Shown one piece after another: positions 29,569-47,232 of a stretch of 64,000 bases of DNA; within the stretch, counting starts at the first letter, position 1, and each line of letters opens with the position of its first letter. Both the position numbers and the translations under genes were made by a program. Location: assembly GCA_016858145.1 (NCBI GenBank), contig JAEHOE010000016.1, positions 372,001-436,000 of the forward strand, given 5' to 3'. The notes beneath the pieces are model-generated. The model ran no database searches, was not told where the DNA came from, and saw only the letters and a program-made list of their open reading frames with translations. This DNA is from Edaphochlamys debaryana. Taxonomy: Eukaryota > Chlorophyta > Chlorophyceae > Chlamydomonadales.

Positions 29569-32500
29569 CTACAGCGCCACGAACACCATGACCAGGGCCG
29601 AGCCCAGGGCCATGAGCAGGCTGGAGAAGGAGGCCACGCCGGCGGCGCCCGAGTTGCCGCCGGTGGAGAGGGTGGGCTTGGAGGCAACCAGGGCGTCGGT
29701 CTTGGCGGGGTCGGTGGCGATGGTGCCGGCGGAGGCGCAGTTGGAGGAGGAGGTGGCCTGGCACTTCTGCTGCGCCTCGTTGAACTTCTTAAAGTACTCA
29801 TCGTTGGTGTTGTAACTGTACGGCAGGTGGGCAAAGAACACGGGTCGGTCGTTAGCTACTTAGTGCAGGGCTCGAGGGTTGGGGGTGCGTGGAGTGCGTG
29901 TGGCGACCCACCGGCGACCCACCCGCCAGGCATTGCATGCGGCCCCACCTCTTCTTCAAGGCACGGCCCAAGTTGCATTCTCGACGCGTTTCTTTGTGAT
30001 TTCACTCTCTGTCAATTACTACTTTACTGCTCTAGCACCGCTCAGCATGGGCAAGCGGCAGCGCCGGCGCAGGCCGGCCAGCACGGCCTGCCCCCACCCG
30101 GCACTCACAGGGGGTCGGCCGCGTCACAGAACTCGAACTCTGCGTCCCAGCTGCAGCCGGAAATGCCCTTGCAGTCGGAGCTGGTGTCGGCCTCGAGGCC
30201 TGTGAGGAAGGGCGGGGAGCGTGGTGGTGCGCGTGGTGAGGCGGGCGGGGCAGGGCGGCGGGGCAGGGCGGGGGGGCAGCGCATGGGTGAGCAGTCAGCC
30301 AGCTCGCAGGTAGACGGCTCCGCCGCTGGGCAGACGCGGGTTTGGTTGCAGCCTGTTTGGGGCACCGCGTATAATCAAAACATTCTCGGGTGGCGGGCCG
30401 CCTTACGCACTCACAGTCGAAGAGCCTGTCCCAGTAGCTGCCGACGGCGGAGCAGGTGCCGGCCAGGTCGTCGCTGACGTACTCCTCGGGGTCATCGAAG
30501 TTGGAGTCAAAGTCCTGCGGGGAATGAGATGGAGCGGGGAGTGAGAGAGGGCGAGGTCGAGAGAGTTACACACGTGAGGGGCCTGCAAGTGGGGGCGCGT
30601 GGCCGGAGCCCTTGCTAGTTTGCCTCTGGACCTTGACAGAGCACAGTACCGTCGCTGTCACAGTATGGTTGCCGGTTGGGAGTTGAGGTAGGGTGCTGGA
30701 GGTTTGTGGTTGGTCTGCTGCTTTGTGCTGGAGGGTACGTCTAGGGTCGTGACTAGGGTTGTGACACCAGGGTTTGCCTCGTGGGACACGTGGCATGAGC
30801 ACCTGAGGTACGGCAAGGAACCCTCCCGAGCGGGGGGACTTAGGCCAACGCCCAGCTTCCGACTAGCAAGTCGGAAGCACTGCTGCTACTACTACTTGCT
30901 GCGGATCTACTCTGCGGTGACTGTAACTACTAGAGTGTTGCTGCTCTGCTGCCTCTAGCGCCTGCGGCGCAGTCACTGTGCCATCCGACGACTTCCCGAG
31001 GAGCCTTCGCTCGCCCCAGCTGCTGAACCTCGGCGCTGGTCCTAGAAGTGAGCCCAGGCACCGCCTGCGTCTTTGCTCGCCAATTTGCTTCCGACTTCTC
31101 TTTCGTCCGCTGGCGCCGCGCGCTACGGACTCCCAGACTCGATCGCTCCGGGCTCCGCCCGCGCTGCGATCTGGCTTCCAAGGAGTCTTCTAGGAAGTCC
31201 AAGCAACAGACTGCGTCTGGTGCTGATAGGCGTGGGCCCGCGGCCGCGCCTCTGCCGATTCCTCAGCTCACGCCTGTGTCCACGACCGCGAGTCGAGCTG
31301 CAGCGCGCGAGCTCCGTAGACAAGAAGAGCAGGAGGCTAATCTCCCGATCGATCGTTTGGCTGCCCTGCTGAACGCCCGAAACGCAGGTACTCCCATACG
31401 CTCGGCACCTGCAAGCCCAACTCGCGGACGAGGCCTCGCTGACCCGCGAGCGGCTACGACTGCTCTTCGCGGCAACCCGCTATTTGAGCAAGACCCCACC
31501 GGCTCCGCCGGTGCTGGGCCGCCGAACTCCGGAGGCTCCGGTGAGCCTCAACATCGTCGCGCGCCTTCGGCTGACCTCGCGACCGAGCCAACCCGGGGCC
31601 GGGGCCGGGGCCGGGGCCGGGGCCGGGGCCGGGGCCGGGGCCGGGGCCGGGGCCGGGGCCGGGGCTGGGGCTGGGGCCGGGGCCGGGGCCGGGGCCGGGG
31701 CCGGGGCCGAGTTCATGATCTTGAACAGTTTGCCCAGGCGGTAGCGCAGAAGGTTCGACTTCATCAGGACCATCAGCTGGGACCGCAGATCAGCATCGCG
31801 GACACAGCTCCGCCGACATCGGCTTCAATGGAGACGATGTCTCCTTTGTCACCCTGCGTGACTACCTGCAGGGCAAGGACGTCGGGGAGCCTCCCGCCAA
31901 CGTCCCCCTGGCCGTGTTCAAGGCCGCCATTGCGTGCACCCCCACCCACTTCGAGGTCCCTCCCGGCTCTGGCAACTTTCCGACGAAGACGATTACGTTC
32001 CTCTCGCCCAGCAAGGCGCAGATCGTGCTCGCGTTGCAGCCCATCCAGTAGACTTTCAATGCAGGCGCGGTAGTCGAGGTCCGGCACCGGAGGCGTATTT
32101 GGAGCAGTGGAGGTATCGATGGACTTCACTTTCGAAATGAGGGGCAGTTCCTCGTTCCGCCAACGTCGGAACACGTCCCCCCATGACTCGCCTCTCCTCG
32201 CAACGACGTTGCAGGTCCTTCTGGCTCCAACTCCGGTGGCAGCGCTGCTGGAGCGTCTTCGGGACCGGGCCCCGCCCGCGTTCCCTCTCCGCCAGCCCCG
32301 CAGCCCTCGGCTGCGGGGGCTCTACCTGCACTCGCCGAGGAGCTCGGGCATCGCCTGCCGGCACCACCCGACGCGCCTGGTGAGCAGCAAGATCTCGGCC
32401 CGGGCCCCGCCCCGGCCGGTCAAGCACAGCCTCCCCAGCCTGCGGCTGCGGGGGCTCTAGACTTAGCACTGGCTGAGGAGGGCGACGGGGAGCAAACTCC

Positions 32501-35500
32501 TCCCGCCCCGGCGCTGCCTGCGCCGGCACCTGCTGCCCAGCTAGCTCCCCGGGCTCCGCCCAGATGGAGCGAAGACGAAGACATGGGCGACCGCAACTGC
32601 CCCAGCTTTGATGCTAAGCCAACTTCCCTTCCCGCCTTCCTGCAGTCCGCGCGCCTGTTCGTCAAACAGTGGGCCATGAGCGACCGAGGCGACAACAAGG
32701 CCCTGATAGCCAAGCTCATCCTCGCGGGCATGGCCGGCGGGCTCACCAAGGATGGGGGCAACAACCTCAACCTGGTCGTGCAAGGCTGGTGTGCGACCGA
32801 GGGCGCCGAGGCCCTGACTGAGCACAAGGACAAGTGGACCCTGCTCCACGCCGGCGTCGCCAATCCCCCCGAGTACAAGGGCCAGGCCAAGCTCCCTGAC
32901 CTCAAGCTCGACGCCTGCGAGTACCTGCTGGAGGCCCTGGCCAAAAAGTTCGGCCGCGAGGACCCCACGTCCAAGAAGAGCTACGACAACTTCGGCGTCG
33001 AGCCCCTCGAGGACCCCATGACGGCGGGCGCTCGCTTCCTCTCCATCGTCAGGCCCATCAGCGAGGCCAGCATCTCGAGACGCGTCCGCACCGAGCGCTG
33101 GCTCCGGGCCGTCATGGAGTCGCACTGGGTCAAGGCCAGCTTCATGAATGACACCATCAAGGTCAGCTACCTGGGCAAGGAGGACAGCGACCCCACCGCC
33201 TGGGACCTCGCCAAGGCCATCGTCCGCTGCCACGAGATCTACAGTGCCTTCCGGGTCGAGCAGGAGGCCGCCGACAGCAAGGTCAAGGACCCCAAGAAGG
33301 TCAAGGCGTTCGCCACGTCTGCTGGCCCCGTCTCCGAGAGCACCAGCGCCTCCGGCGTAGGCTCGGCCGACATCGCCCGCCTCTCGTCGCAGATCGAGCG
33401 CATGGCCAACAGCGTCTCGGCTCTGACCACGCACTCCGGTCGCCAGGACCACAGCAAGGGCTACGGCGGCCAGGCGGGCGGGCGCCAGCAGCAGCAGCAG
33501 TCGAGCGGCGGCAGCAAGCCCCGCTGGCCCAAGGCGGAGCCCGGCCCCGCCACCGGCTCCACGGGCGACTGCTCCTTCTGCAACGCCAAGCACCACTCGG
33601 TGGACTTCTGCACGGCCAACGCCAAGGCCGGCAACTTGACCGCGCTGCCCGGCCACCCCAAGTCCATCAACATGGACAACGCCTGGGCGGAGCTGGTCCG
33701 CAGGAAGCCGGAGTATGCGGCGCTGCTCTCGGCGCCGCGCCAGCAGCAGCCGCAGGGCGACCGCCCCCGCAGGCAGGACTACGCCAAGCCCAAGGACAAC
33801 AACCGAGGCAAGGGCAACCCGCAGCACGCGGCCTACGCTGCAGAGGCCTCGCCGTACCTGCAGTCCCAGGCTCCGCCTGCGGCGCTGCACTACGGCCAGG
33901 GTCCCGCGCCCTACGGCTACGGCTACGGCTACTCCACGCCGCCGCCCTCGTCGTACGGCCACAGCTACGGCTACGGCCAGGGCCCTCAGGCTCCGCCTGC
34001 AGGTGCCTTCGCGTCCTCGGCCTCCTTCCGGGCCCCGGCGGCCCCGCCGCCCGGGGTGCCGCCGCCACCGTCCTGGCCCATGGGCTACGGGGCTCCGCCT
34101 TTCTCGCACCCACCGCCATCCTCGTACGCGCCGAGCTCGGCGTCCGCTCTGCACACGGACGTCCTCTCGGTGGCCCAGCACCCGTACAACAGCACGTTCG
34201 TCACGTACGTGGAGTACGGCACCCCTGGCGCAGCCCTGGCCACGTCGGCTTCGGTCTCCCAGCTGGGGGGGGGTATGAGCGCGTGCAACAGCGTCGGCAG
34301 CTTCGCCAGCAAGGAGACCGGCCCCGCCGTGTCCCCGACTGGGCCGCCAACGCCAATCCAGGGCCAGACCGTGTGGCCACCGCAGGCCTCCTCGACCGCG
34401 GCCTTCAACACCGCCAAGGAGCCTATGCCTGCCAGCTTCCGGCAGCTGCCCCCCGGGCCGCTGCCCAGCTCCATGCGCCTGCCGCCCGTGGAGCAGGTCT
34501 CCTTCTCGCACATGAAGGACGGCAGCTCTAACGTCCGCTTCGGCCCCATGGCTCCGGGCAAGACGGCGGCGGCGCTCGAGATCCTGGGCAAGATGATGGC
34601 CGAGCTGCTGGATCTGCTCAAGGCCCCCGAGGTGGTGCCCGAGGCCTCCGCCCTCGCCTGCTCATCTACGGCCGCCACCGCCGGCTCCAAGATGGAGGAG
34701 ATCAAGCAGTACCTGAAGAGTGAGCTCGCCAGCTCCCTTCACTACGTCGACAACAGCGACCCCAAGCGCGGCGCTGGCCTGCTCAAGGCCGACGGCACCC
34801 TGATCTTCCCTCCCGGCATCGGGCCAGACACCATGTGCAACACGGTGGGTCTGATGGTCCAGAGCTTGTACGAAAACCTCGGCGTCAAGCTGGAGCCCTG
34901 TAACGCCGGCGTCAAGTCCCTGCGCCAGAGCAGCCGACCCCTCGGCATCGCCCGCGTGTGGAACGTCATCACGCCTGGCACCGCGTCCGAGCTGCGCGTC
35001 TGCGGGGACTTCCTGGTCGTCCCCGACGACTGGGCGGCCGGTCTCTTCACCATGCTGTGGGGCGGGCCGCTCTTCCACCAGTGCGGCATGCTGTACGACT
35101 ACTACCCGCGCCCGCACCTCCGCTTCCGCTCCGGGCTGCACCAGGGCGACGAGACCATCAACGGCCACGTGGCGCTGGTTCCGGCCCCGCCGGAGCTGGA
35201 GAAGGTGGCAGCCTCGCTCCGCGCCTGCTACGCCACGGCCCTGCTGCCCTCTGAGCCCTCGCCACCCCCGGTGGACGAGGCCGAGGCCCGGCTCAAGACC
35301 GTCTCCGTGCACATCCCCACCGTACGGTTCGATGCCAGCGACTGTGCTCGCCCGCTGGCGTCTGCGCTGGGGCTGAGCGACCGCCGCATTTGCATATGGG
35401 ACTGGAGCCCCGCGGACGGCGCCAGCGTGGCCTTCGCCACCAGCCTCGACACTGCGGAGGAGCTGGACGAGGAGGAGATGCTCGTGTACGAGGACGAGGA

Positions 35501-38500
35501 GCTGGCGGAGGCTGACGCGCGAGGAGAGCTGTCTGGGCCCCAACTCGAGGAGGTGGAGCCGCACCACACCCAAGCGCCGACGTCCGCCGCCTCGGCTCCG
35601 CCGAAGGGGGGTCCCGAGATCCAGGCCCTGGCTACGCACGACCACCCACGGCGTCCCGCCTCATCCCGAGATGAAGGGCGTCAGTCCAGCCGCGGCCGCT
35701 CCCACTCCCGCGACCGAGGTGCTGAGAGCCGAGGCCGTGACCACGAGCGCGAGCGTTCAGGCGACCGTCAACCCCGCCGCAGTGGCAGTGGTGGAGCTGG
35801 CGGCCGCCGACCTTCGGGCTCTCCGCAGAGGTCCCGCAGCCGATCCCCTGGGACGCCTGGACGGCTCTCAGGCTCACGCCGCCCCTGCACCCTCTGCAGC
35901 TGTCTGCGCGAGGCGACGAAGCTGCAGGCTTACCGAGATCTGGCCGTCTTCCCTGGTCACGAGAACTACCGAGGTGCCGGCCCCCGGCTCGGCAACCCGC
36001 TGCGCTACCCACCTTGGTCGCGGCACAGCCAGGACTACTGCCTGCTGCACGCCTTGCTGGGCGGACCCACGCTGCTGCGGTGGACCCCGGAGCTGCAGGA
36101 CTCGCTCGGCAGCCTGGACATCAAGGGCTTCTTCCAGCCCATTAACGAGGTCGATCTGCAACCATGGCCTGAGGACCTGCCTGCGCTCCCCCTGGCCAAG
36201 GCATACGACCGAGGTGACAAGCAGCTTCGCCGTGAGTGCCGGTGGACGGAGGAGGTGCTGGCGCGCATGGGCCCCGACCTAGATCGCCCCAATGTCTCCG
36301 TCTACCGCCAGAGTGAGCGCCACGTCCACTCCAGTACCTACTTCATCGGTGCGTACATCGACTGGTGCCGTAAGCTCAGGGACTGGCTCGCCTTCAAGGG
36401 GCAGACCATCGGCTGGCGGGAGCAGCGACCGCTCCCGGCACCTCAGCCTGCCCCGCCACCGCCGCGCAAGGAGCGCAGCCGGCCCCCTGAGGTGCCCCCT
36501 GCCGCAGCCGCCGGGCCCTCGACCTCGGCAACGCCCCAGCACGACGCCGCGGCGGCGGGTCTCAGCGGCAGCGCCCAGGTGCGCAACCGAGAAGCGCTTG
36601 AGGCTGGCGCCCAGGCCCCGCCTGCGGTGCCTTCGCCCAAGCGCCAAGCGACCGCGATCCCCACGACTCGGGCTCCGCCCGCAGCTCAGGAGGTGGCAGC
36701 TTCGGCGGACCAAGGCCCGCGTCCCGCGGGGGCCGAGCTCGCCCCCAAGGCCCCGGTGCTGACTGCGGCTCTGGCGTCGCAGTACCCTTACCTGCCGCCA
36801 CCGCTGCCTGCCCCAATAGTCCGCGATGCCCTCGTGCCTCCGCTACCGGCCGAGCAACCTGGTTCGGACCCCCAAGCCCTGCCGGCCAGCCAGCAGGCCT
36901 ACATGTGGCGCCGGGCTTCGGCCATCATGGTAGGAGACGTGATCTTCGGCGAAGGCTGCGCGGACACGTATCAGCGCTATACGGAACGCGAAGCCGCGGT
37001 CGCCCTGCCGAGGCCGCCGCCTCCCGTCTGCGTCCTGGCATCCGCCTGCTACCACGGGTCCTCACTCACTGACGACGTCACGCCCATGGACCGCAACGAC
37101 CTGTGCACCGGTCTGCTGTTTGGCAACAACGAGCGATCCCGGTGGGAGTCACAAGGCCTCCCCAAGATCGAGATCACGTGCGCGGGGTTCGACATCACGT
37201 CGGCGTCGTACAGCGTCGACATGGGCCTCACCGGGGCATGCTGCCTCATGCGGCAAGACCTCTTCGACGGCGTCCCCGTTGCCGTGCTGCAAGACACTGC
37301 GGTCACTACCGCCGGTCTCTACCACGAGGACGAGGTGATCAAGGTCTTCGGAGCGCGCGGTGTCAAGAAGTCGTTCTACTCCACCAAGCGCACGGCACGC
37401 GACGTACGCGTCTTCATCAATGGCACCCTGGGACGCGACGGCGCCCCAGGTGAACCCGCAGCGATCATGGTGCAAGTGCCCGTAGCACCCGTCCTGCCCG
37501 TGGAGGACCTGCCCTACGGCATCGTGTTTGGGCGCCCATTCCTCTCCCTGCTGCGGGCAAACATCAGCGTCCGCACCTCAGGCGACGAGTACTGGCTGAG
37601 CTACCCCGTCGATGACACCGTCTCCTGGCGCACTCGGCTCTGGCTCTGCAACCGGTACACGGACAATGCCATCCGCTTCTGCGCCCTAGCGGCAGCCCCG
37701 GCTTCGAGCAGGGGGGGGGTAGAGCCCGAGCCTGAGTCCAAGCTCTCCTCGTCTGCAAAGCTGCTTGAGCCGGCCCCGCCGCTCGCGGCCAAGCCCGGGG
37801 ACGAGCAACCCGACTCTGCCAGTGGTAACTCTGGCCCCGGCCCCGCCGGCGAGCGGGATGGGAAAGCGCTGCCCGACAGCAGGTACTGTGCGACTCCGCG
37901 CCAGCTGCCCTTCAGGGTCAAGGCCAACACCCCCGCCAAGCGCAGCATCAACGGCCCCGGCGCCGCCGGTCTCAGCCCCGCTGCGGAGCACCTCGAGGCT
38001 GGTGAGTCCCCGGCTCCCGGCACCGCCGGTACAGAGTCGCGGACCAAGGGCTCCTGCTTCCTCCCCGGCTGCGGCCTGATTGACCATGACGTCTACGGCG
38101 TGTCCTTCGCTCGTGCCCTGCACCTGCTCTGCGATCTCGGTGCCCACACTATTGCTTACGGTGCCACCACCTTCGGCATCTGGGTTCCCCTCCCGCACTG
38201 CCCCAGGGCCATCGCGCGCCTGATCGCGGCCAGCCCTATCTACGGCCCCGTGCAGCCGTACGACACCTTCGGTGCCAACACCACCGACACCGAGGATGAG
38301 GACTGGCACTCGACCAGCAGTGAGGAGGAGTCTGATGATGACGCGGAGCTAGACGAGCAGCTGGATGACTGGATGGAGCACGTCCAGTGGAGGCTGGGCT
38401 GCATGATCCTGCGCCGCGTCACGCGCAGCATCAACCGCAAGCTGGCCCGCCAAGCGAGGCGCGAGCTGCGCCGACAGGAGGAGCTGCGTGCGCAGGCCTT

Positions 38501-41500
38501 CGCTGCTATGGAGCTGGCGCGCCGCCGGTACCTGAGCCTGGTCAAGTGACAGTTCCTGCAGCAACGGGCGGAGCGCTGGGCTGCCGCGGCGGGCGCCAAG
38601 GTGTCCAAGCGCAAGTACGCACCGCCCGACGCCAACACCAAGTCGGCGACTCCGGCGCGCTGGCGCCTCAACAGCTACAAGACCTTCACCTTCGCCATTG
38701 TGATGCTGGTCTTCCTGGGCTGCTGGCGGCTGTCGGACGCGACGCCCAACTGCGTTCCGCATCCGGCTTACCCTCAGGGGGGGCAGTGGCTGGCTCCAAG
38801 CTGGGCGCAGCTAGAGCAGTCGCCCGCCACCACCCCGCTGGAGCAAGCCATGCGGCGCATCCAGCTGCGTGACCCGGCACCGCCGGCGAGGCGCTCGCCG
38901 CCCCAGGCCCCACCTGCGGGCTCGCCCTCGGCTGAGACACCTCCAGCAGAACCACCGAGCACCTTTGTCACGGGCACCGCACATGCAAACGCATCTAGTG
39001 TGGAGAGGCCTGCGGCTCCGCCGACAGAGCCGCCTAACGTAGCTGCGTCAAGGCCCTCGGCCGCCAATGTCACGACTCCTGATGGGGCTAGGGCACCGCC
39101 CGAAGACTCCACCTTAGTTAAGCAAGAAGCAATACACTTTATGCATTCGACCTGATATGACTGAGGAGCAGCGTGATAGCCTCAAGACGCTGTTTTCCAA
39201 ATATGACCACTTGTTTGCTAGGAGCCTCAAGGACATTGGTTGCTACCGAGGGGAGTTGGGGCCGGTAAGACTCGAACTCAAGCACAACAACCCGATATTT
39301 GAAGCACCGCGACGACATTCGGCTGCCGAGCGGTTGGTCGAGGATGCCAAGTGCCGCGAGCTGTACGGTGCCGACATTATCGAGCCGTCCAACTCCACGC
39401 AGTACGCGATGAATGTAACCCTGCCACGTAAGAAGGGAATTGACGGTTCGTACGAATCCAACGAGTACCGCTATTGTGCGGACGCGCGCCGTATAAATGC
39501 AGCGAGCGTGCGCGATAATTTCCGGCCGCCAGCGCCGGAAGACCTGTTCGATCGCATCCTGGGCGCGCGATTCATTACTAAGTGCGACTGCCGCGCCGCG
39601 TTCAACCAACTGCCGCTCGCCGAGGAGGATCGCGATAAGACCTCGTTCTGGTGGAACAACACCCTCTGGCGGTACAAACGGTTGATGTACGGCGCCGTCA
39701 ACGCCACGGCAGCTTGGCAGCGAGTACTTTCGCACCACGTGCGGAAGTACGGCCTGCAGGACTGCGTGTACCTTTTTGTCGACGACGCCGCAGTAACCGG
39801 CCGTACGGCAGAGGAGCACGAGCAGAATCTCGCGTGGTTCCTTGCAATGTTGGACGAGATCAACATCAAGCTGCATCCCGACAAGACCGTAGTCGCGGCA
39901 GACAAGATAGAGTTCCTGGGCCACATGGTGAGCGCTGACGGGCTCCGCCCGGTTCAGGCCAAGGTCGCTGCGATCCAAGCCATCCAGCCCCCTCGCTCGC
40001 TGACCGAGCTCCAAGCCCTGCTCGGCCTCTGCAACTACTATCGTTGTTACATCCCCCGCTTCGCCTGCATCGCCAACCCGCTCTATGAGCTCACCAAGAA
40101 GGGCGTCGCGTGGGGTCCCGAGACCTGGCAGCCGCGCCACCAGGAGGCCTTGGACCAGCTCAAGGCCGAGTTCTCGACCAACGACCGGCTGCTGCGCAAG
40201 CCTGATCCCAACTGTCAACTGATCCTTCACACTGACTTTTCCAATGTAGGCATCAGCGCCGTCCTAGGCCAACTGGATGACGAAGGGCATGAGTACATGG
40301 TCGCCTGCATCTCGCGCTCACTCAACGTGCACGAGCGCAACTACACCTCCTACAAGGGTGAGATGCTGGCTGCCTGCTGGGCAATGAAGATGCTGCGCCC
40401 CTACCTGATAGGCCCACGCTTCATCCTGGTCACCGACCACGCGCCCCTGCTCTGGCTGATGGAGAACCAAAACCTAGTGGGGCAGTACGCTCGCTGGGCA
40501 CTCTTGATGCAAGAGTACGACTTCGATGTCGCCCATCGGCCAGGCCAGCTCCACTATAACGCTGACACCCTCAGCCGCTCACCTCTGCCCTCGAGCGCTG
40601 ATGGCTCCGGAGCCCGCATGGACGAGGACTCCGACGCCAAGCCGCCGCCACCTCGGCTCGTCCCGTATCCGACCGTCACGCCCTCGGCGCAACCCACGGC
40701 GCTCATGTCTGCAGTCCAAGTCCTGGCGCTGCGCGCTCGCGAGGAGTACTCCCTGCTGGCCACCGTCACGGGACAGGGCTCCGCCCTCGCTCCCTCTCCC
40801 GACGAGTGGCTCGCTGGCGGCAACGGCACAGCCTCTGACCCCGTCGAGCGCTTCGCCGACCCCGAGTGCACTGTGGCTCAGCTCCTGACCCGACAGGCCA
40901 ACCTCACCGCCAACCGCGTCGTGCGCGAGGCCCGAGACGCCCTCCGGGCGACCTCGCTCTCGCCGCCGCGTCCCCGCCGAGTTGCCGAGGGCCGCACCGC
41001 CGCTCTCGACACCAGCCTGCTCTCGCACCACTTCCTGGAGCACGCCTTCACGGAAGGGCTGGTAGTCGTGGAGTGCGGCACCTCCACTGCCACGGGCCTC
41101 GAGGCCTGCCTCCGGGCGGGCTGGACCGTGCGCCGTTATCACACCCTGGGCGCGCCCGCGCAAGAGCATTCGCTGCTGCGCCGCCGCCTGGGCTGGCTCC
41201 GTGCCTCCTTTCCACGACAGCTTCGCGGCTCCGCCGTTGAAAGCCCCTGGGCCGCGCTGCCGCCCGGTCCGCTCACCAACGACCACCTCCTTGCTGCTTC
41301 CGCCAAGTCAGGGCAGCAGTGGTTGGTGCTCGGCAACCTAGACTCGACCCTGGCTCCGCCAGATAGAGTGCTAGAGCTCCTGGGCAGGCTCCAAGAGCTG
41401 CAACCCCATCTCCCGCCCGGCTTCCTGCTGGAGCGCGAGCCTCCAGCGTCTGCGGACACGCCCTTCGGGACCTGCCTCACGCTGGACACCGCTGCCATGG

Positions 41501-44500
41501 GCAGGGCCCAGCACTCGCTGCGCGCCTTCTGCACCAACCTCGCGGCTCCCGAGCACCTGCGCAAGGTGGCAACATCTGGTGCCTGGAGCCCCAGTAACCT
41601 CTCGGCAGCTGCAGCGGCACCCTCGCGCCGCCTGCCCCTCTGCGAGGCACCCCTCAGCGAGCCCTACTCGGCCTGCGACGTGCCGGGTCGCCCCGTCACC
41701 GTCTTCCCGCCGGGCAACCTCGCCACTATCCAGCTAGCCTCCACCGCCTCGGCCGTGCCTTCGCCGCTGCTGCCCGAGGAGATAGCCGTCCTGACCGGCC
41801 TGGAGCCTGCTTCGCTGCTGGAGCGGCGCAACGACGGCACCCTCGCCGTGCCCTCCGCCATCGACGCCCTGCAGCAGGGTCTGCAGACTCCAGCTGCTGC
41901 ACGCATCTTTCTCTGCGCACAAGCCCTTCAACGCGCTTTCGTCACCCCGCACCACATGGCTCGCATGCCACCTCAGCAGGCACCACCGGCTGCCCCGCTG
42001 GGGGGGGGTAGGGAGATTGAAAACAACACAGCGGCGCAGCCTGCAGCCCTGGTCACCACCGCGCTGCAGCACCACCAATCCAACGAGCACTGGACTTCTG
42101 CCCTGGTCTCGGCCGTCGCCGACGCACAGGAGTCCCGCTACTGCGACCCTTGGGAGGACAAGCAACTGCTCCACTACCTCGCCCAGGGCACCTGCCCCGC
42201 CGGCATTGTCGGAGAAGCGGCTAGACGGGTAGCGCGTCGTGCTATCAATTACCGTTTCGACGACCGGAGCAACCGCCTGTACCGCCGCATGCCCAACAGC
42301 ACCATGCGCGAAGTACCCCCACCTGAGCGCCGCCAAGCCATCATCCAGGAGGCCCACCACCGCCTGGGGCACTGGGGAGCTCGCCGCACCCTGTGCCTGG
42401 TCCAGAACGGCTACTGGTGGCAAGGCATGTCCAGGGACGTGGAGTATGTGGTGCAGTGCTGCCCCCTGTGCGATCGCGCCAACACCGTGGGCAACGTCAT
42501 TCCGCCCGAGCTGCACCCCCTGCCAATCCGCGGGCCCTTCTTCCGCTGGCACGTGGACCTGGCTGGGCCTCTCACGCGCACTAGCTCTGGCTACGAGTAC
42601 GTCATGGTCTGCGTCGAGGCTTGGACAAAGCACGTGGAGATGATCCCGCTTCGCTCCAAGGGCTCTGAGGAGGTGGCCAACGCCTTCCTAGCCAACGTCT
42701 TAGCCCGCTTCTCGGCGCCCGCCGAGGTGGTGACCGATGGAGGCACCGAGTTCCACGGCGCCTTTGCCGCCCTGCTCGAACAATGCTTCATCGACCATCG
42801 TCACACGTCGCCCAACCACCCGCAGGCCAACGGCGCTGCGGAAAGGGTCGTGCAGGTCTGCAAACGCTCTCTGCGCAAGTACTGCGCTCAGTACGCCTCC
42901 GCCGAACGCTGGGACGAGTACCTGCCCTGGGTCCTGATGGGCTACCGCTGCTCCCCTCAGAAGTCCACCGGCAAGTCCCCGTTTGAGCTCATGTACGGTG
43001 CACCGCCTGCTGTGCCCCTCGGCGCCGCCGAGCTGTGGGCAGAGGCGATCGACCCTGACGCCGATCCGCAACGGGCCGACCAACTCGTCATGCTGCGCTC
43101 ACACAACGTGCAACAGGCCGCGCCTTTCAACGGCCAGAACCTGCTGACGGCGCAGTGGCGAGACCGCCACAACTACGCCCGCGTGCGAGCTGGCGGCTAC
43201 AAGCCCCGCTTCACCAAATTCAACGTAGGCGACTACGTCTACGTCATCCTGCGCAATCAGAACAACACGCTCCAACTGCCCGTCCGCGAGACCGTGCTCC
43301 GCATTGTGGCCGTGAGCCCAGAGGGAGTTGCCGAGCTGATGGGCCGCGATGGTACCATCCGCAAGGAGCACGTGAGCAACCTTGCTCCCTGCCACCTCCA
43401 GGACCTGGACCCAATCGTCGATCCCCGCATCGCAGTGCCGCCGCTAGACCTGCCCTGCGAGATCTGTGCCTTCCCAGGCGACGAGTCCAAGATGGTCATG
43501 TGCGACGGGTGCGGCACCGGCTGGCACCTGTACTGCCTTCGACCCCCGCTCCCGCGCGTGCCCCGCGGCACCTGGACTTGCCCCGACTGCCATGCCCGCG
43601 GTGTGACACCGGCAACAATTGATCAGCTGCCTGCCCCCGTACCGCGCGAGGCACCGCAGCCGCAGATCTTCCCCTCCGCTCAAGCGCGCCGTCGACTCAA
43701 CGAGGCCAAGGCGCTGGAGGGCATCCCCTGCTCCCGCAAGGTCCGAGACCCCGCGACCAACACCTTCGTGAACCGTAGGGGCACCCTGCACTACAAGTCG
43801 GACGAGCCGCACGCTCGCCCCATTGAGGCGCGCTACACTGACGGCACCGCGGAGCGCCTGACTCTGCGAGCAGCCAAAGCATGCGCTCAACCGTCCACCA
43901 CGGCCCTCGTCACGGCGGCTGGGGCCCCGCCCTCAGTCCTGCCCGACACCTGGGACCTGTCCTCGCCAAGCGCCCGAGCTGCTGCGCTGCTGCAGCTGCG
44001 CACCGTGCCCGGGCTGGCCTCTAGCCTGCCTGAGTCCTTTCCCGCGGGTACGCACCCTGCACCCGCTGAGGAGGCGCTCAACCTACTTCTGGACCACCTG
44101 GACGCGAGCCGATCGCCCGTCATTCTGGACCCGTGTGCCGGCGACGAGACTCTGGCCAACGCGCTCCGTGCGAGAGGCTACTCCGTCTGCGCCAACGGGG
44201 GCCGGGCCACCGAGGCCCCGGGCTGGCCCCGCTTGGATCCCCTGCAACCTGGGACCTACCGCCGCCTCGCCACGCCCGGCGAGTCCTGGCTCATCATCTC
44301 CGCTCCGCACCCGGAGCTTCTGCCCTTCTGGCTGCCCCTGGCTGTCGCCATGGTGCCGCTAGTCGCGGCCTTCATCCCACGGCGCATGCTTACGGCCCCG
44401 CCGGACGCATGGGCCGCCCTGCTCAACACCTTCACGGAGGACGAGCGGCTGGCCATCATCACTGGAGACACCTGTGGATACGTCAACGGAAAGCCTGGAG

Positions 44501-47232
44501 CTTGGCTGTTAGTGTTCCGGGATGCGACCATGAGGGCGCAGCTGATGAGGGGTATCGGGAAGGGACGCGCTGGGCACTGGGTGCATGCGTAGATAGGGTG
44601 GTGAACCGGGGGAGATGAGTCCTGCTGGCTGTGGCCTGGTGAGAACACTTAGCGAGCATGGGGGAGGATTGAGGTTTCCCTGCTGGAGGGGACTGTTGTG
44701 TACAGCTTGAGCAAACTGCTTCTGACTTAGCGTATGGCTTCGAGGCCGCCTGACTTCGCGTTTTTGGCTCTAGAGTCGCCAAGGGGGGGAGTTCGGTCAG
44801 CCGGCTGCACTTTGCCGTAGCCCATAGTGTGTCCTGACAGCTGACAGAGCACAGTACCGTCGCTGTCACAGTATGGTTGCCGGTTGGGAGTTGAGGTAGG
44901 GTGCTGGAGGTTTGTGGTTGGTCTGCTGCTTTGTGCTGGAGGGTACGTCTAGGGTCGTGACTAGGGTTGTGACACCAGGGTTTGCCTCGTGGGACACGTG
45001 GCATGAGCACCTGAGGTACGGCAAGGAACCCTCCCGAGCGGGGGGACTTAGGCCAACGCCCAGCTTCCGACTAGCAAGTCGGAAGCACTGCTGCTACTAC
45101 TACTTGCTGCGGATCTACTCTGCGGTGACTGTAACTACTAGAGTGTTGCTGCTCTGCTGCCTCTAGCGCCTGCGGCGCAGTCACTGTGCCATCCGACGAC
45201 TTCCCGAGGAGCCTTCGCTCGCCCCAGCTGCTGAACCTCGGCGCTGGTCCTAGAAGTGAGCCCAGGCACCGCCTGCGTCTTTGCTCGCCAATTAGTTCGG
45301 TCAGCCGGCTGCACTTTGCCGTAGCCCATAGTGTGTCCTGACAACCTCTGACCCCGCCCCAAGACCCCAAGCAACCCCGCGGCATGAAACCGTGAATGGC
45401 CCCTCTCCTCGTCCTTGAAGGCCTTGTTGGCCAGATCGTCCAGTTGCGTGCTCCACACCCAGTTGGCGGTGCACACGCCGCCGTACCTCTCAGTGTCGCC
45501 TGAGCGAAGGGCCGGTAGGGGCGGGGGTCCGGGTGCCAGGGCAACGAACATCAAGAGGAGGGAGCGAGGCGTGGGGCCGTGCGCGCTCCAGGCGTGGGGG
45601 CCCGTCAGGGTTCGGGCAGAGCCATGGGAAGCGTAGGGCAAGAGGCAGAGCCCTAGCTACCGGTAGATGTGTGGCGCTCCCGAACCCTAGGAAGCAAGGA
45701 GACTCACCGTAGCCCATGCTGCTCTCCATGTACTCGGTCACGTACTTGACCAGCTTGGCCTTGGTCTGGGGCAGGTTGGAGTCGGAGCCATCAACGTCGG
45801 CGTTCTTGGTGGCATCGGTCAGCTGGGCGTTGGTCTTCCAGGTGCACTCGCCGCTGCACTCGGCTGCCGGACGGGGGAGGGGGCGGTGAGGGGGTGAGAG
45901 GGGTGAGGGACGGGGGGTTGAGGGGGTTAAGGGGAGTTCCGGGCAGGGGGTGGGGACTCAGGAGGGGCAAGAGGAGTGGGACGGGAGAGGGGGCTCGTCG
46001 TCATGGGGACAATGGGTGAGGGCGCAGGTGCGCTCATGACTGATGGCCAAGCGGGGAGCGAAGGGCAGGGCCTGCGCGGATGGAGTCGCCTCATCACAGC
46101 TCACCCTGCTTCAGGTTGGTGCCGCAGACCACGGCCTTGTCCAGCAGCGAGCCGGAGCAGAACTCTTTGTCGCGAAGCCACTGTGGGGGCGGCGACCGGG
46201 CGCGGAGGGGGGAATGAGAAAGGGGGCGGGGGCGGAGCGGAGGGGGGGCGAGGGGGGTTGGCGGCGGTGGAAGGGCGTGAGAGTTAGCTGCCGGGCCCGG
46301 TACTCTGGCGTGTAGAGGGGTGGAGACAGGCTGAGGAGGGCCAGGAGTGTGGGGCCAGAAGTGTGGGGCCAGGAGTGTGGGGCCAGGAGTGTGGGGCAAG
46401 GTGCCGGGCGCGCTGAGAGCCTCTGAGCGGGATACGTGGTGGCTAGGAGGGCGGGGGCCGAAGGGGGCCGACTGCTGGGGGCTCACCAGGGGGTTGTAGA
46501 GGGTCGGGGAGGGGTAGCAGATGCCAAGGTCGCTGACGCCGTACCACCTGTCAGAAGGGGCAAAGCGGGGAGATGGTTAAGCGGAGGCCTTAGACAGAGG
46601 GCAAGCGGCCAGAGGCGCCGCGGGAAGTTGGGCGGACGTAGGGTGCGTCTGACGCGTGCGACTCACTCGCAGACGGACTGCTTGATGCAGTCGGCCTCCA
46701 CCTCGATGCTGTCGCATTTGTACATGGCGGCCTGCTCGTAGGCGATGAGCCTGCGACGAGGACACAAAGCGGGTGCGCGTGAGTCGGCATTGAGCGAGGA
46801 AATCGCAACTTTCTCCAAAACCGGTCAGACTCGGCGGCGAGCGAAGGACCTGACAGCTTGTTACTCACTTGCCGGTGTCGGTGGTGGGGGCCGGGACGGT
46901 GGTGACCCAGCCTGCGCGAGGAAGCGTGCGCGACGGTCAACGCACGGTCTGGTGCGTGTGCGCGCGGCCCTTCCGCTGCCCGTTGGGTGATCAGCTCCGA
47001 GTGCGTGCTTACCGGGGTTCAGGTCGCATCCCCAACCAGCGTCAACGCACAGGTTCTCGGTCGCAAGGCGCTGGCGAGCGGCTGCGCCCGCTGCGACATG
47101 CGCCAGACGCCGCTGACGCTTGAACCGATGGGCCCCGAGGGCGCGGGCAACTGTGTCGTCCGTATCAGCAGTTGCCGATACAGCCAGTATGGCGACGCAA
47201 AGCGTCGCCAGGACGGAGAGCTCGAGACGCAT
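29569..47232 (-). CDS. Secreted Cys-rich GPI-anchored protein (copy B), split by a retroelement
   Basis: Tandem paralogue of 25445-28391. Ten exons inferred by alignment to copy A join to 389 residues: 47013-47232, 46869-46911, 46667-46750, 46487-46547, 46105-46180, 45708-45863, 45408-45499, 30415-30514, 30109-30199 and 29569-29815. It has a signal peptide ([20 protein letters not shown]), Cys/Trp modules in the same order ([36 protein letters not shown]) and a C-terminal hydrophobic GPI-type end ([17 protein letters not shown]). The intron between 45408 and 30514 contains a whole 14.7-kb retroelement on the opposite strand. In addition, the donor of that intron reads GAG|GAGAGG where copy A has GAG|GTGCGT, so no GT sits at the expected place. 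Compared with copy A, one long exon (26132-26325) corresponds to two exons here. The gene may be dead or mis-spliced; coding frames are otherwise intact. Confidence 0.75.
30634..31085 (+). repeat. Terminal repeat A1 (452 bp)
   Basis: Matches 44842-45293 base for base as read by eye (constant offset 14208). Starts TGACAGAG. Contains a perfect 10-bp-stem hairpin at 30855-30878 and a TGTAA at 30922-30926. The match to the right-hand copy stops at ...GCCAATT; the next base begins the presumed primer-binding segment. Confidence 0.92.
30922..30926 (+). terminator. TGTAA poly(A) signal inside repeat A
   Basis: The algal poly(A) motif in sense with the element's genes, 54 nt downstream of the proposed transcript start at about 30868. 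The copy at 45130-45134 in A2 would end the genomic transcript. Confidence 0.4.
31086..31097 (+). promoter_or_regulatory. Putative self-priming primer-binding segment
   Basis: TGCTTCCGACTT begins at the first base after A1 and is the exact reverse complement of 30868-30879 inside A1. In Tf1-type elements the 5' end of the RNA folds back onto the primer-binding site next to the LTR to prime cDNA. No TGG-starting tRNA site is adjacent; a TGGCGCC lies at 31111. Confidence 0.5.
31595..31708 (+). repeat. GGGGCC hexanucleotide array, about 19 units
   Basis: Nineteen consecutive 6-bp units, two of them GGGGCT (31661-31672). In the frame of the leader ORF this encodes Gly-Arg repeats. Confidence 0.95.
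32583..38549 (+). CDS. gag: Retroelement Gag-protease-like polyprotein (1988 residues)
   Basis: N-terminal 300 residues look like a retrotransposon capsid (for example [38 protein letters not shown]). A CCHC zinc knuckle of exact spacing C-x2-C-x4-H-x4-C is at about residues 330-343 ([14 protein letters not shown]). A long Gly/Tyr/Pro-rich stretch follows (about 430-540). Two regions look like retropepsin folds: about 700-850, ending [15 protein letters not shown], and about 1535-1670, with [11 protein letters not shown] and later [11 protein letters not shown]. Both have changed catalytic triplets (DTM, DMG instead of DT/SG). An acidic segment ([19 protein letters not shown]) and a basic helix end the protein. 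The frame is intact. The start ATG at 32583 is the first in a frame that is open back to 32187, so the true N-terminus is uncertain. Gag would form the cytoplasmic particle. Confidence 0.85.
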   Translation: MGDRNCPSFDAKPTSLPAFLQSARLFVKQWAMSDRGDNKALIAKLILAGMAGGLTKDGGNNLNLVVQGWCATEGAEALTEHKDKWTLLHAGVANPPEYKGQAKLPDLKLDACEYLLEALAKKFGREDPTSKKSYDNFGVEPLEDPMTAGARFLSIVRPISEASISRRVRTERWLRAVMESHWVKASFMNDTIKVSYLGKEDSDPTAWDLAKAIVRCHEIYSAFRVEQEAADSKVKDPKKVKAFATSAGPVSESTSASGVGSADIARLSSQIERMANSVSALTTHSGRQDHSKGYGGQAGGRQQQQQSSGGSKPRWPKAEPGPATGSTGDCSFCNAKHHSVDFCTANAKAGNLTALPGHPKSINMDNAWAELVRRKPEYAALLSAPRQQQPQGDRPRRQDYAKPKDNNRGKGNPQHAAYAAEASPYLQSQAPPAALHYGQGPAPYGYGYGYSTPPPSSYGHSYGYGQGPQAPPAGAFASSASFRAPAAPPPGVPPPPSWPMGYGAPPFSHPPPSSYAPSSASALHTDVLSVAQHPYNSTFVTYVEYGTPGAALATSASVSQLGGGMSACNSVGSFASKETGPAVSPTGPPTPIQGQTVWPPQASSTAAFNTAKEPMPASFRQLPPGPLPSSMRLPPVEQVSFSHMKDGSSNVRFGPMAPGKTAAALEILGKMMAELLDLLKAPEVVPEASALACSSTAATAGSKMEEIKQYLKSELASSLHYVDNSDPKRGAGLLKADGTLIFPPGIGPDTMCNTVGLMVQSLYENLGVKLEPCNAGVKSLRQSSRPLGIARVWNVITPGTASELRVCGDFLVVPDDWAAGLFTMLWGGPLFHQCGMLYDYYPRPHLRFRSGLHQGDETINGHVALVPAPPELEKVAASLRACYATALLPSEPSPPPVDEAEARLKTVSVHIPTVRFDASDCARPLASALGLSDRRICIWDWSPADGASVAFATSLDTAEELDEEEMLVYEDEELAEADARGELSGPQLEEVEPHHTQAPTSAASAPPKGGPEIQALATHDHPRRPASSRDEGRQSSRGRSHSRDRGAESRGRDHERERSGDRQPRRSGSGGAGGRRPSGSPQRSRSRSPGTPGRLSGSRRPCTLCSCLREATKLQAYRDLAVFPGHENYRGAGPRLGNPLRYPPWSRHSQDYCLLHALLGGPTLLRWTPELQDSLGSLDIKGFFQPINEVDLQPWPEDLPALPLAKAYDRGDKQLRRECRWTEEVLARMGPDLDRPNVSVYRQSERHVHSSTYFIGAYIDWCRKLRDWLAFKGQTIGWREQRPLPAPQPAPPPPRKERSRPPEVPPAAAAGPSTSATPQHDAAAAGLSGSAQVRNREALEAGAQAPPAVPSPKRQATAIPTTRAPPAAQEVAASADQGPRPAGAELAPKAPVLTAALASQYPYLPPPLPAPIVRDALVPPLPAEQPGSDPQALPASQQAYMWRRASAIMVGDVIFGEGCADTYQRYTEREAAVALPRPPPPVCVLASACYHGSSLTDDVTPMDRNDLCTGLLFGNNERSRWESQGLPKIEITCAGFDITSASYSVDMGLTGACCLMRQDLFDGVPVAVLQDTAVTTAGLYHEDEVIKVFGARGVKKSFYSTKRTARDVRVFINGTLGRDGAPGEPAAIMVQVPVAPVLPVEDLPYGIVFGRPFLSLLRANISVRTSGDEYWLSYPVDDTVSWRTRLWLCNRYTDNAIRFCALAAAPASSRGGVEPEPESKLSSSAKLLEPAPPLAAKPGDEQPDSASGNSGPGPAGERDGKALPDSRYCATPRQLPFRVKANTPAKRSINGPGAAGLSPAAEHLEAGESPAPGTAGTESRTKGSCFLPGCGLIDHDVYGVSFARALHLLCDLGAHTIAYGATTFGIWVPLPHCPRAIARLIAASPIYGPVQPYDTFGANTTDTEDEDWHSTSSEEESDDDAELDEQLDDWMEHVQWRLGCMILRRVTRSINRKLARQARRELRRQEELRAQAFAAMELARRRYLSLVK
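38550..39155 (+). CDS. In-frame extension after gag stop, with one membrane segment
   Basis: After the gag TGA (38547-38549) the same frame stays open for 202 codons to a TGA at 39153-39155. It could be read as a separate ORF from the ATG at 38601 or as stop-codon readthrough. It has a hydrophobic span ([15 protein letters not shown]) close to its N-terminus, then a Pro/Ala/Ser-rich region. The final TGA is one base before the pol ATG (TGATATG), a layout that would favour termination-reinitiation. No homologue recognised; an env-like role is possible but unsupported. Confidence 0.5.
   Translation, partial: QFLQQRAERWAAAAGAKVSKRKYAPPDANTKSATPARWRLNSYKTFTFAIVMLVFLGCWRLSDATPNCVPHPAYPQGGQWLAPSWAQLEQSPATTPLEQAMRRIQLRDPAPPARRSPPQAPPAGSPSAETPPAEPPSTFVTGTAHANASSVERPAAPPTEPPNVAASRPSAANVTTPDGARAPPEDSTLVKQEAIHFMHST
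39157..44592 (+). CDS. pol: Retroelement Pol: RT, RNase H, MTase-like, DDE integrase, PHD finger, MTase-like (1811 residues)
   Basis: Intact frame. Order by approximate residue: reverse transcriptase 40-300 with catalytic LFVDDAAV near 206-213; RNase H 360-480 ([18 protein letters not shown]); a C5-methyltransferase-like region 630-910 ([38 protein letters not shown]); integrase zinc-binding HHCC near 1066-1110 ([16 protein letters not shown]); DDE core with [16 protein letters not shown] and AAERV at 1134, 1194 and 1229; PHD finger 1434-1480 ([22 protein letters not shown]); and a C-terminal SAM-binding-like domain 1650-1800 ([20 protein letters not shown]). RT, RNase H and integrase copy the RNA and insert the DNA in the nucleus. 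Both MTase-like regions lack intact catalytic motifs, so they are probably inactive or repurposed. PHD fingers commonly bind histone H3 tails, so this one could steer integration. Confidence 0.9.
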   Translation: MTEEQRDSLKTLFSKYDHLFARSLKDIGCYRGELGPVRLELKHNNPIFEAPRRHSAAERLVEDAKCRELYGADIIEPSNSTQYAMNVTLPRKKGIDGSYESNEYRYCADARRINAASVRDNFRPPAPEDLFDRILGARFITKCDCRAAFNQLPLAEEDRDKTSFWWNNTLWRYKRLMYGAVNATAAWQRVLSHHVRKYGLQDCVYLFVDDAAVTGRTAEEHEQNLAWFLAMLDEINIKLHPDKTVVAADKIEFLGHMVSADGLRPVQAKVAAIQAIQPPRSLTELQALLGLCNYYRCYIPRFACIANPLYELTKKGVAWGPETWQPRHQEALDQLKAEFSTNDRLLRKPDPNCQLILHTDFSNVGISAVLGQLDDEGHEYMVACISRSLNVHERNYTSYKGEMLAACWAMKMLRPYLIGPRFILVTDHAPLLWLMENQNLVGQYARWALLMQEYDFDVAHRPGQLHYNADTLSRSPLPSSADGSGARMDEDSDAKPPPPRLVPYPTVTPSAQPTALMSAVQVLALRAREEYSLLATVTGQGSALAPSPDEWLAGGNGTASDPVERFADPECTVAQLLTRQANLTANRVVREARDALRATSLSPPRPRRVAEGRTAALDTSLLSHHFLEHAFTEGLVVVECGTSTATGLEACLRAGWTVRRYHTLGAPAQEHSLLRRRLGWLRASFPRQLRGSAVESPWAALPPGPLTNDHLLAASAKSGQQWLVLGNLDSTLAPPDRVLELLGRLQELQPHLPPGFLLEREPPASADTPFGTCLTLDTAAMGRAQHSLRAFCTNLAAPEHLRKVATSGAWSPSNLSAAAAAPSRRLPLCEAPLSEPYSACDVPGRPVTVFPPGNLATIQLASTASAVPSPLLPEEIAVLTGLEPASLLERRNDGTLAVPSAIDALQQGLQTPAAARIFLCAQALQRAFVTPHHMARMPPQQAPPAAPLGGGREIENNTAAQPAALVTTALQHHQSNEHWTSALVSAVADAQESRYCDPWEDKQLLHYLAQGTCPAGIVGEAARRVARRAINYRFDDRSNRLYRRMPNSTMREVPPPERRQAIIQEAHHRLGHWGARRTLCLVQNGYWWQGMSRDVEYVVQCCPLCDRANTVGNVIPPELHPLPIRGPFFRWHVDLAGPLTRTSSGYEYVMVCVEAWTKHVEMIPLRSKGSEEVANAFLANVLARFSAPAEVVTDGGTEFHGAFAALLEQCFIDHRHTSPNHPQANGAAERVVQVCKRSLRKYCAQYASAERWDEYLPWVLMGYRCSPQKSTGKSPFELMYGAPPAVPLGAAELWAEAIDPDADPQRADQLVMLRSHNVQQAAPFNGQNLLTAQWRDRHNYARVRAGGYKPRFTKFNVGDYVYVILRNQNNTLQLPVRETVLRIVAVSPEGVAELMGRDGTIRKEHVSNLAPCHLQDLDPIVDPRIAVPPLDLPCEICAFPGDESKMVMCDGCGTGWHLYCLRPPLPRVPRGTWTCPDCHARGVTPATIDQLPAPVPREAPQPQIFPSAQARRRLNEAKALEGIPCSRKVRDPATNTFVNRRGTLHYKSDEPHARPIEARYTDGTAERLTLRAAKACAQPSTTALVTAAGAPPSVLPDTWDLSSPSARAAALLQLRTVPGLASSLPESFPAGTHPAPAEEALNLLLDHLDASRSPVILDPCAGDETLANALRARGYSVCANGGRATEAPGWPRLDPLQPGTYRRLATPGESWLIISAPHPELLPFWLPLAVAMVPLVAAFIPRRMLTAPPDAWAALLNTFTEDERLAIITGDTCGYVNGKPGAWLLVFRDATMRAQLMRGIGKGRAGHWVHA
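44781..44789 (+). promoter_or_regulatory. Polypurine tract
   Basis: AAGGGGGGG lies directly before repeat B1, where plus-strand DNA priming would be expected. This puts the reverse-transcription LTR start at B1, not at A2. Confidence 0.7.
44790..44839 (+). repeat. Terminal repeat B1 (50 bp)
   Basis: Begins AGTTCGGTCAGCC and ends CCTGACA; repeated at 45294-45343. Followed by the dinucleotide GC and then A2. Confidence 0.9.
44842..45293 (+). repeat. Terminal repeat A2 (452 bp)
   Basis: Second copy of A1, apparently identical, including the hairpin (45063-45086) and TGTAA (45130-45134). Confidence 0.92.
45294..45343 (+). repeat. Terminal repeat B2 (50 bp), right end of the element
   Basis: Second copy of B1, directly joined to A2 and ending in CA. 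The host duplication ACCT follows. There is no B copy at the left end of the element. Confidence 0.9.

Follow-up and report, generated by a model that had tools for sequence, protein, structure and literature searches.

It is probable that a Ty3/Gypsy-type retrotransposon of Edaphochlamys debaryana carries two integrase ends fused 2 bp apart inside its long terminal repeat (LTR), and that it is inserted by way of a cut at this internal site, the ends of the cDNA being joined. What can be read directly from the genome is an inherited layout of two repeats, A ... B-GC-A-B, together with 4-bp target-site duplications, a B-GC-A joint that is constant and a joint between the second A and the second B (A2/B2) that is variable. 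A more far-reaching proposal might equally well prove right or wrong: a DDE lineage that no longer integrates through its cDNA termini, in which a fused site 50 bp inside the left cDNA end is cut as one palindrome, both ends so formed enter the chromosome from that single place, and joining of the termini is an obligatory last step.

The window element and its proteins

The window analysed is a stretch of 64,000 nucleotides, within which a direct-repeat search and reading of the sequence gave the order A1 - coding - polypurine tract (PPT) - B1 - GC - A2 - B2, with the repeats and the genes on the plus strand. The termini are TG...CA, and the element is flanked by the duplication ACCT (30630..30633 on the left, 45344..45347 on the right; no strand assigned). 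A1, the 5' repeat of 452 bp (30634..31085), begins TGACAG and has no B upstream; it contains the proposed self-primer AAGTCGGAAGCA (A 235-246; 30868..30879) and a TGTAA (A 289; 30922..30926). Immediately 3' of A1 is a putative primer-binding site, TGCTTCCGACTT (31086..31097), which is the exact reverse complement of A 235-246. Towards the right end the PPT, AAGGGGGGG (44781..44789), abuts B1 (50 bp, 44790..44839), whose 3' end CTGACA is followed by the GC spacer (44840..44841) of the fused joint CTGACA-GC-TGACAG. A2 (452 bp, 44842..45293) is identical to A1, with 0 differences, and B2, the right end of the element (45294..45343), is 100% identical to B1. The A2/B2 joint (45293..45294; no strand assigned), which differs among copies, is the proposed end-joining scar. 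For A (452 bp), B (50 bp), GC, the TG...CA ends and ACCT, the original prediction was correct to the base.

Two long open frames lie between the repeats. The gag-like frame (32187..38549) has a CCHC knuckle by eye, and a Pfam search of it gave nothing above cut-off. The pol frame (39118..44592) contains reverse transcriptase (RT), RNase H, the H2C2 zinc-binding domain of the integrase (42316..42486, residues 1067-1123), the DDE integrase core (42541..42843, Pfam match at residues 1142-1235) and a PHD finger (43456..43590, residues 1447-1491). RT, RNase H, H2C2 and PHD are above the Pfam cut-off; the integrase core of the window copy, at 30.7 bits against a cut-off of 32.6, is slightly under it. 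Its catalytic residues D1147, D1207 and E1242 are all present, and are invariant across 11 aligned proteins. The HHCC and D,D35E residues are intact, and the HHCC plus DDE integrase predicted from the sequence was thereby borne out. A Pfam scan of the plus-strand open reading frames of the window and of five minus-strand ones did not find a tyrosine recombinase. The best solved relative in a similarity search is Ty3 Gag-Pol; close relatives occur in Gonium, Tetrabaena, Pleodorina, Astrephomene and Volvox, the nearest named proteins being volvocine, and the PHD finger is present in 10 of the 11 aligned pol members. By the pol order (RT - RNase H - integrase) and the similarity searches, the window element is classed as a Ty3/Gypsy-type retrotransposon. 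The short fixed duplication and TG...CA ends of that class are present, while in place of two equal LTRs at the integrated ends there is A on the left and A-B on the right, with B also internal.

In the relatives P0023 and P0028, a stretch resembling a cytosine-DNA methylase separates the RNase H and integrase domains (PF00145 is listed for P0028). At ~40600-42300 of the window (P0002 residues ~500-1040) only scattered methylase-like similarity is seen by eye, and Pfam detected no such region in the 11 aligned pol members. After the PHD finger, at ~44000-44590 (the C-terminal part of P0002), is a stretch, DPCAGDE..., which we take to resemble a SAM-binding motif; it has no Pfam match.

Copies, families and joints

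The genome searched comprises 141,892,200 bases (141.9 Mb) in 502 contigs, and copies are named here by contig (C2, C13 and so on). It holds dozens of copies with the A ... B-GC-A-B layout. A matches at least 41 places (with 40 of 119 candidates scored). B occurs at 106 places with up to 3 mismatches, against 0 for the reversed control, and it is exact at at least 82 (among the 100 of 106 listed), many of them paired ~490-510 bp apart. In the loci read, 3' ends have the order coding - PPT - B - GC - A - B and 5' ends A - coding, with some exceptions; the PPT is directly 5' of B1, as in the window element, and B1 stands ungapped between the 3' coding end and GC (the PPT of C24 has one extra base). 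The absence of B from the left end, pointed out in the original prediction, holds generally: none of the 30 copies in which the flank upstream of a five-prime A was read (14 + 2 + 14 short stretches) has B there. Copy C58, additional to these 30, is a tandem, PPT-B-GC-A-coding. Judged by coordinates, with 100 of the 106 B places listed, the mirror form A-B-GC-A-coding-B was found at 0 of 58 five-prime joints; among these A-coding joints a listed B lies ~480 bp upstream only at C58 and C24, and both of these B follow a 3' coding end. Three copies with duplications (C195, C119 and C65) have the form A-coding-B. No related loci were found in viral contigs.

The left and right 4-mers are equal in 20 of the 24 insertions compared, in line with the 4-bp duplication (ACCT in the window element) that had been named as expected of DDE integration. 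The four mismatched cases (C413, C457, C460 and C463) are all on contigs of less than 22 kb, and C457 has the same right flank as C242b, C460 as C27 and C463 as C242a; such repeated flanks are likely to reflect chimeric or duplicate assembly pieces. The same may be said of a wider set, C413, C457, C460, C463 and C90/C210/C456, in which the sequence beside the element pairs with, or duplicates, a flank found on another contig. A1 and A2 differ at 0 positions in C16, C123 and C2, at 1 in C28a and C53, at 2 in C8, at 7 in C13a (5 of them from a deletion at the joint) and at 13 in C90, which may be misassembled. By this measure the insertions appear to be mostly recent. An isolated B at L048 (C33:616002-616051) has GCATGG on both sides; its upstream sequence is unlike the window element, and the idea that it is a joined left-end fragment was dropped on that ground.

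A second family (F2) was found inserted inside B1 of a copy of the first (F1) at C19, with the duplication AGCC. Its A' repeat, of ~403 bp, aligns poorly with A and shares its first 15 bases; B' is 50 bp, 35 of which are identical to B, including the last 17. Matches to PPT-B'-GC-A' that are full-length or a single base short occur at no fewer than 16 places (40 of 108 candidates scored), 14 of them at 98-100%, with C137 at 90% and C3, which has a gap, at 85%. B' immediately follows an A' match at at least 14 places, and at 12 of these PPT-B'-GC also immediately precedes A'. F2 thus has the same layout, which must predate the split of the two families. The search of the same genome proposed in the original prediction therefore found the layout at many loci and in a second family besides, so that it is due neither to chance nor to misassembly; since, in addition, no B precedes any of the 30 five-prime A repeats, the layout is inherited. 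Judged by coordinates, short F2 copies of the form A'-...-PPT-B', which resemble the A-coding-B copies of F1, occur at C107:65616-70732, C22:54243-59018 and C80:61933-62415 (~5.1, 4.8 and 0.5 kb), and are possibly non-autonomous or deleted one-LTR forms.

The two joints of the right end behave differently. The dinucleotide between B1 and A2 is GC in 28 of 28 aligned insertions, and the joint CTGACAGCTGACAG is found 76 times, the reversed control giving a single occurrence. Some of these lie outside the listed F1 and F2 places (C5:354057, C13:1154485, C62:415346, C89:173877 and C208:103772) and possibly belong to further families. In the same 28 insertions the diversity of B1 is 0.0057, compared with 0.029 in the preceding 500 bp and 0.034 in A2; three 50-bp segments elsewhere are similarly low (0.003, 0.004 and 0.007), values of 0.003-0.004 being reached within the adjoining 500 bp, so that B is conserved but not uniquely. 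The length of 50 bp for B rests on individual loci and on F2, the alignment of the 28 having preset the length of B1 by slicing. More telling than the diversity is the constant length of B, which measures 50 bp in each family against 452 bp and 403 bp for A, though two families are few.

The A2/B2 joint is plain in 26 insertions and altered in 16 (a tally of 42 in which places with a common right flank are counted once; 9 of the 26 are without a flank read, and some of these could be duplicates). One extra T is present in C90, C25, C242b and C39 and an extra C in C17, and T is the first base in C81; AG is missing from C13b and C278; C13a and C53 have deletions with GC or TT microhomology; C28a has a 217-bp filler, and C235 an inverted 3' cDNA piece. 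At C24 (L042, ~1142100-1142190) the primer-site sequence stands between A2 and a B-like end unlike the B1 of that copy, a joint perhaps made with cDNA of another family. An inverted 3' segment is present at the joint in C2, C15 and C218 (the B2 side being read only for C2). In C2 the sequence from window position 43552 to the end of A2 is inverted and placed between 43544 and B2, which implies that the A-end and the B-start were both loose while another break was open. C235 likewise has the A-end and the B-start as loose ends; C15 and C218 bear on the A-side or the break only. Autointegration by the integrase was considered for C2, but no 4-bp repeat is apparent at 43544/43552, and end joining is preferred.

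Loci L056 and L057 have 0 differences in 440 bp of A2, yet their A2/B2 joints differ; a joint that differs between copies with identical A2 must have been made anew at, or just before, insertion. Private variants are common to B1 and B2 of one insertion in C17, C39, C88 and C166, so B2 is a copy of the B of the same molecule. The A2/B2 joint was apparently formed by end joining. The extra T seen at some joints is also the base with which the primer site begins, and the AG lost from others belongs to the end of the purine run; both would be expected if primers were removed imprecisely.

A predicted route from RNA to insertion

The element appears to prime its own reverse transcription. The primer site of F2, TGCTCCCGTCTT, pairs with A' 189-200, and both sides co-vary between the families. 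The match is 12 nt long in each, whereas the longest control match was 10 nt (1929 coding-region segments), and it is kept exactly in 13 of the 14 five-prime copies checked, L019 being without it. Reverse transcription thus looks to be self-primed, as in Tf1-type elements. In Tf1/Tj1, as described in PMC4600332, the primer site directly follows the 5' repeat and, within the RNA, is complementary to part of that repeat, an arrangement like that of the window family; split repeats are not described for Tf1/Tj1 in the relevant parts of that source. Priming by a tRNA was considered and set aside: by eye there is no TGG-type site directly after A1, and self-priming fits better. A candidate strong hairpin at A 216-262 (CTTCCGACT/AGTCGGAAG) contains the proposed self-primer; the same region of A' has a hairpin in F2 (CTCCCGTCT/AGACGGGAG), the arms of which co-vary with the primer site between families.

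The PPT before B1 and the co-varying primer match together predict a linear cDNA of the form B-GC-A-coding-B-GC-A, and give support to the B-GC-A LTR that the positions of the tract and the primer site had earlier been taken to imply. TGTAA, a possible poly(A) signal, is present at A 289 and at A' 235; its occurrence in A2 suggests that the RNA may end there, in which case B2 would be absent from the RNA. The start of A is an imperfect inverted copy of the end of B (12-13 of 18 positions), so that B-GC-A can be regarded as a pair of integrase ends with only a 2-bp spacer between them.

The proposed sequence of events, each step of which is read from integrated copies, is as follows. The RNA would begin in A1 and end in A2; reverse transcription, self-primed and with plus-strand synthesis starting at the PPT, would give the linear B-GC-A-coding-B-GC-A. 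The near-palindrome CTGACA-GC-TGACAG in the left LTR would then be cut by the integrase 3' of CA on both strands, in effect a double 3'-processing with one dinucleotide shared, and the A-start and B-end so released would be inserted into the target. The loose cDNA ends, A-end and B-start, would be sealed by end joining. A cut of both strands at B-GC-A would explain why the termini are TG...CA, why GC is lost and why there is a duplication.

As to when the ends are joined, we lean slightly towards a linear substrate: the cDNA would be cut 50 bp from its left end, and the chromosomal break between A-end and B-start repaired after integration. It is possible, though we are inclined to doubt it, that the ends are instead joined first into a two-LTR circle with an A/B joint, and that the integrase opens this circle at B-GC-A and integrates it, in the manner of the old circle-junction model. 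The variable A2/B2 joints do resemble circle junctions, the A-coding-B copies resemble opened one-LTR circles, the palindromic joint CTGACA-GC-TGACAG has CA on both strands, and two-LTR circles of HIV-1 have been reported, in PMC4372172, as a reserve for integration. A circle, however, has two equal B-GC-A joints, yet the mirror form was not seen at any of the 58 five-prime joints (100 of 106 B listed), and a circle offers no explanation for the unused right-LTR joint. That the left site alone is used, at a distance of 50 bp from the predicted cDNA terminus in each family, argues for cutting of linear cDNA, which would plausibly account for it. The A-coding-B copies C195, C119 and C65 could be opened one-LTR circles, or could arise by annealing of B1 with B2. 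The two readings offered in the original prediction, a circular or end-joined cDNA opened at CTGACA-GC-TGACAG and a stable new architecture, both fit these results; an end-joined cDNA agrees with the variable A2/B2 joint, the opened joint being, as far as listed, always that of the left LTR.

The transcript might instead run through B2, so that an ordinary A-B LTR, lacking only the 5' B, is inherited whole, and it is true that the layout is identical in most copies. This is improbable: copies with identical A2 (0/440 differences) have different A2/B2 joints, filler and inverted cDNA are located exactly at that joint, the possible signal TGTAA in A2 precedes B2, and no primer site follows B2. 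An assembly artefact at the window locus can be dismissed almost outright; several small contigs are indeed chimeric or repeat flanks (C413, C457, C460 and C463), but the layout occurs at many loci on large contigs, in two families and with locus-specific duplications. The repeats also invite comparison with PAT-like DIRS elements, which are not known to make a target-site duplication. The order A1 - coding - B1 A2 B2 is that of the split direct repeats of PAT, Ngaro and VIPER, as set out in PMC4157794 and PMC6681497, where it accompanies a tyrosine recombinase; such an enzyme might act here in trans, with the DDE integrase as a passenger. The window family shares the split repeats, but has 4-bp duplications (20/24 insertions), TG...CA ends and a DDE integrase with intact HHCC and D-35-E residues, and no recombinase in the frames scanned, and a PAT-like origin is accordingly very hard to credit.

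Relation to known systems

The volvocine PHD-finger Gypsy-like polyproteins have the RT-RNase H-integrase order in common with the window element. REM1 of Chlamydomonas reinhardtii also carries a PHD finger. As characterised in PMC2774666, REM1 is a Ty3/Gypsy element with a truncated, reversed integrase; it resembles the window element as a Ty3/Gypsy element of a related alga, and differs from it in that integrase. Ordinary Ty3/Gypsy elements (Metaviridae) integrate through the LTR termini, whereas the integrated ends of the window family are permuted. In the literature searched, to which Repbase, the REM1 paper and the Chlamydomonas genome supplements did not belong, there was no earlier description of split direct repeats with a DDE integrase.

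The accepted view is that the integrases of retroviruses and LTR elements work on both ends of the linear cDNA. The circle-junction model of 1984 is presented in PMC11054761 as set aside. Purified spumavirus integrase is reported to cut a CA-AT-TG junction on both strands, leaving a 5'-protruding AT (PMC1180852), and HIV-1 integrase to cut its own palindromic two-LTR junction as a tetramer (PMC1905944). These two junctions are palindromes cut 3' of CA on both strands, as proposed for the joint of the window element, and the spumavirus one also has a 2-nt spacer; they arise only upon joining of LTR ends, whereas in the window family every LTR would already contain the junction, copied from the RNA.

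In nature the family appears to rely on a junction of the internal kind, and the scars of the step are readable in the genome; the question is therefore testable by sequencing and a simple integrase assay. Split direct repeats are then no sure mark of tyrosine-recombinase elements, which matters for the classification of transposable elements by structure. If the proposal is true, an enzyme of this class would here be inserting DNA by an unusual route, and the family would be a DDE counterpart to the split-repeat strategy of tyrosine-recombinase elements, and a natural system using the type of junction that was once proposed as the precursor of retroviral integration and then dropped.
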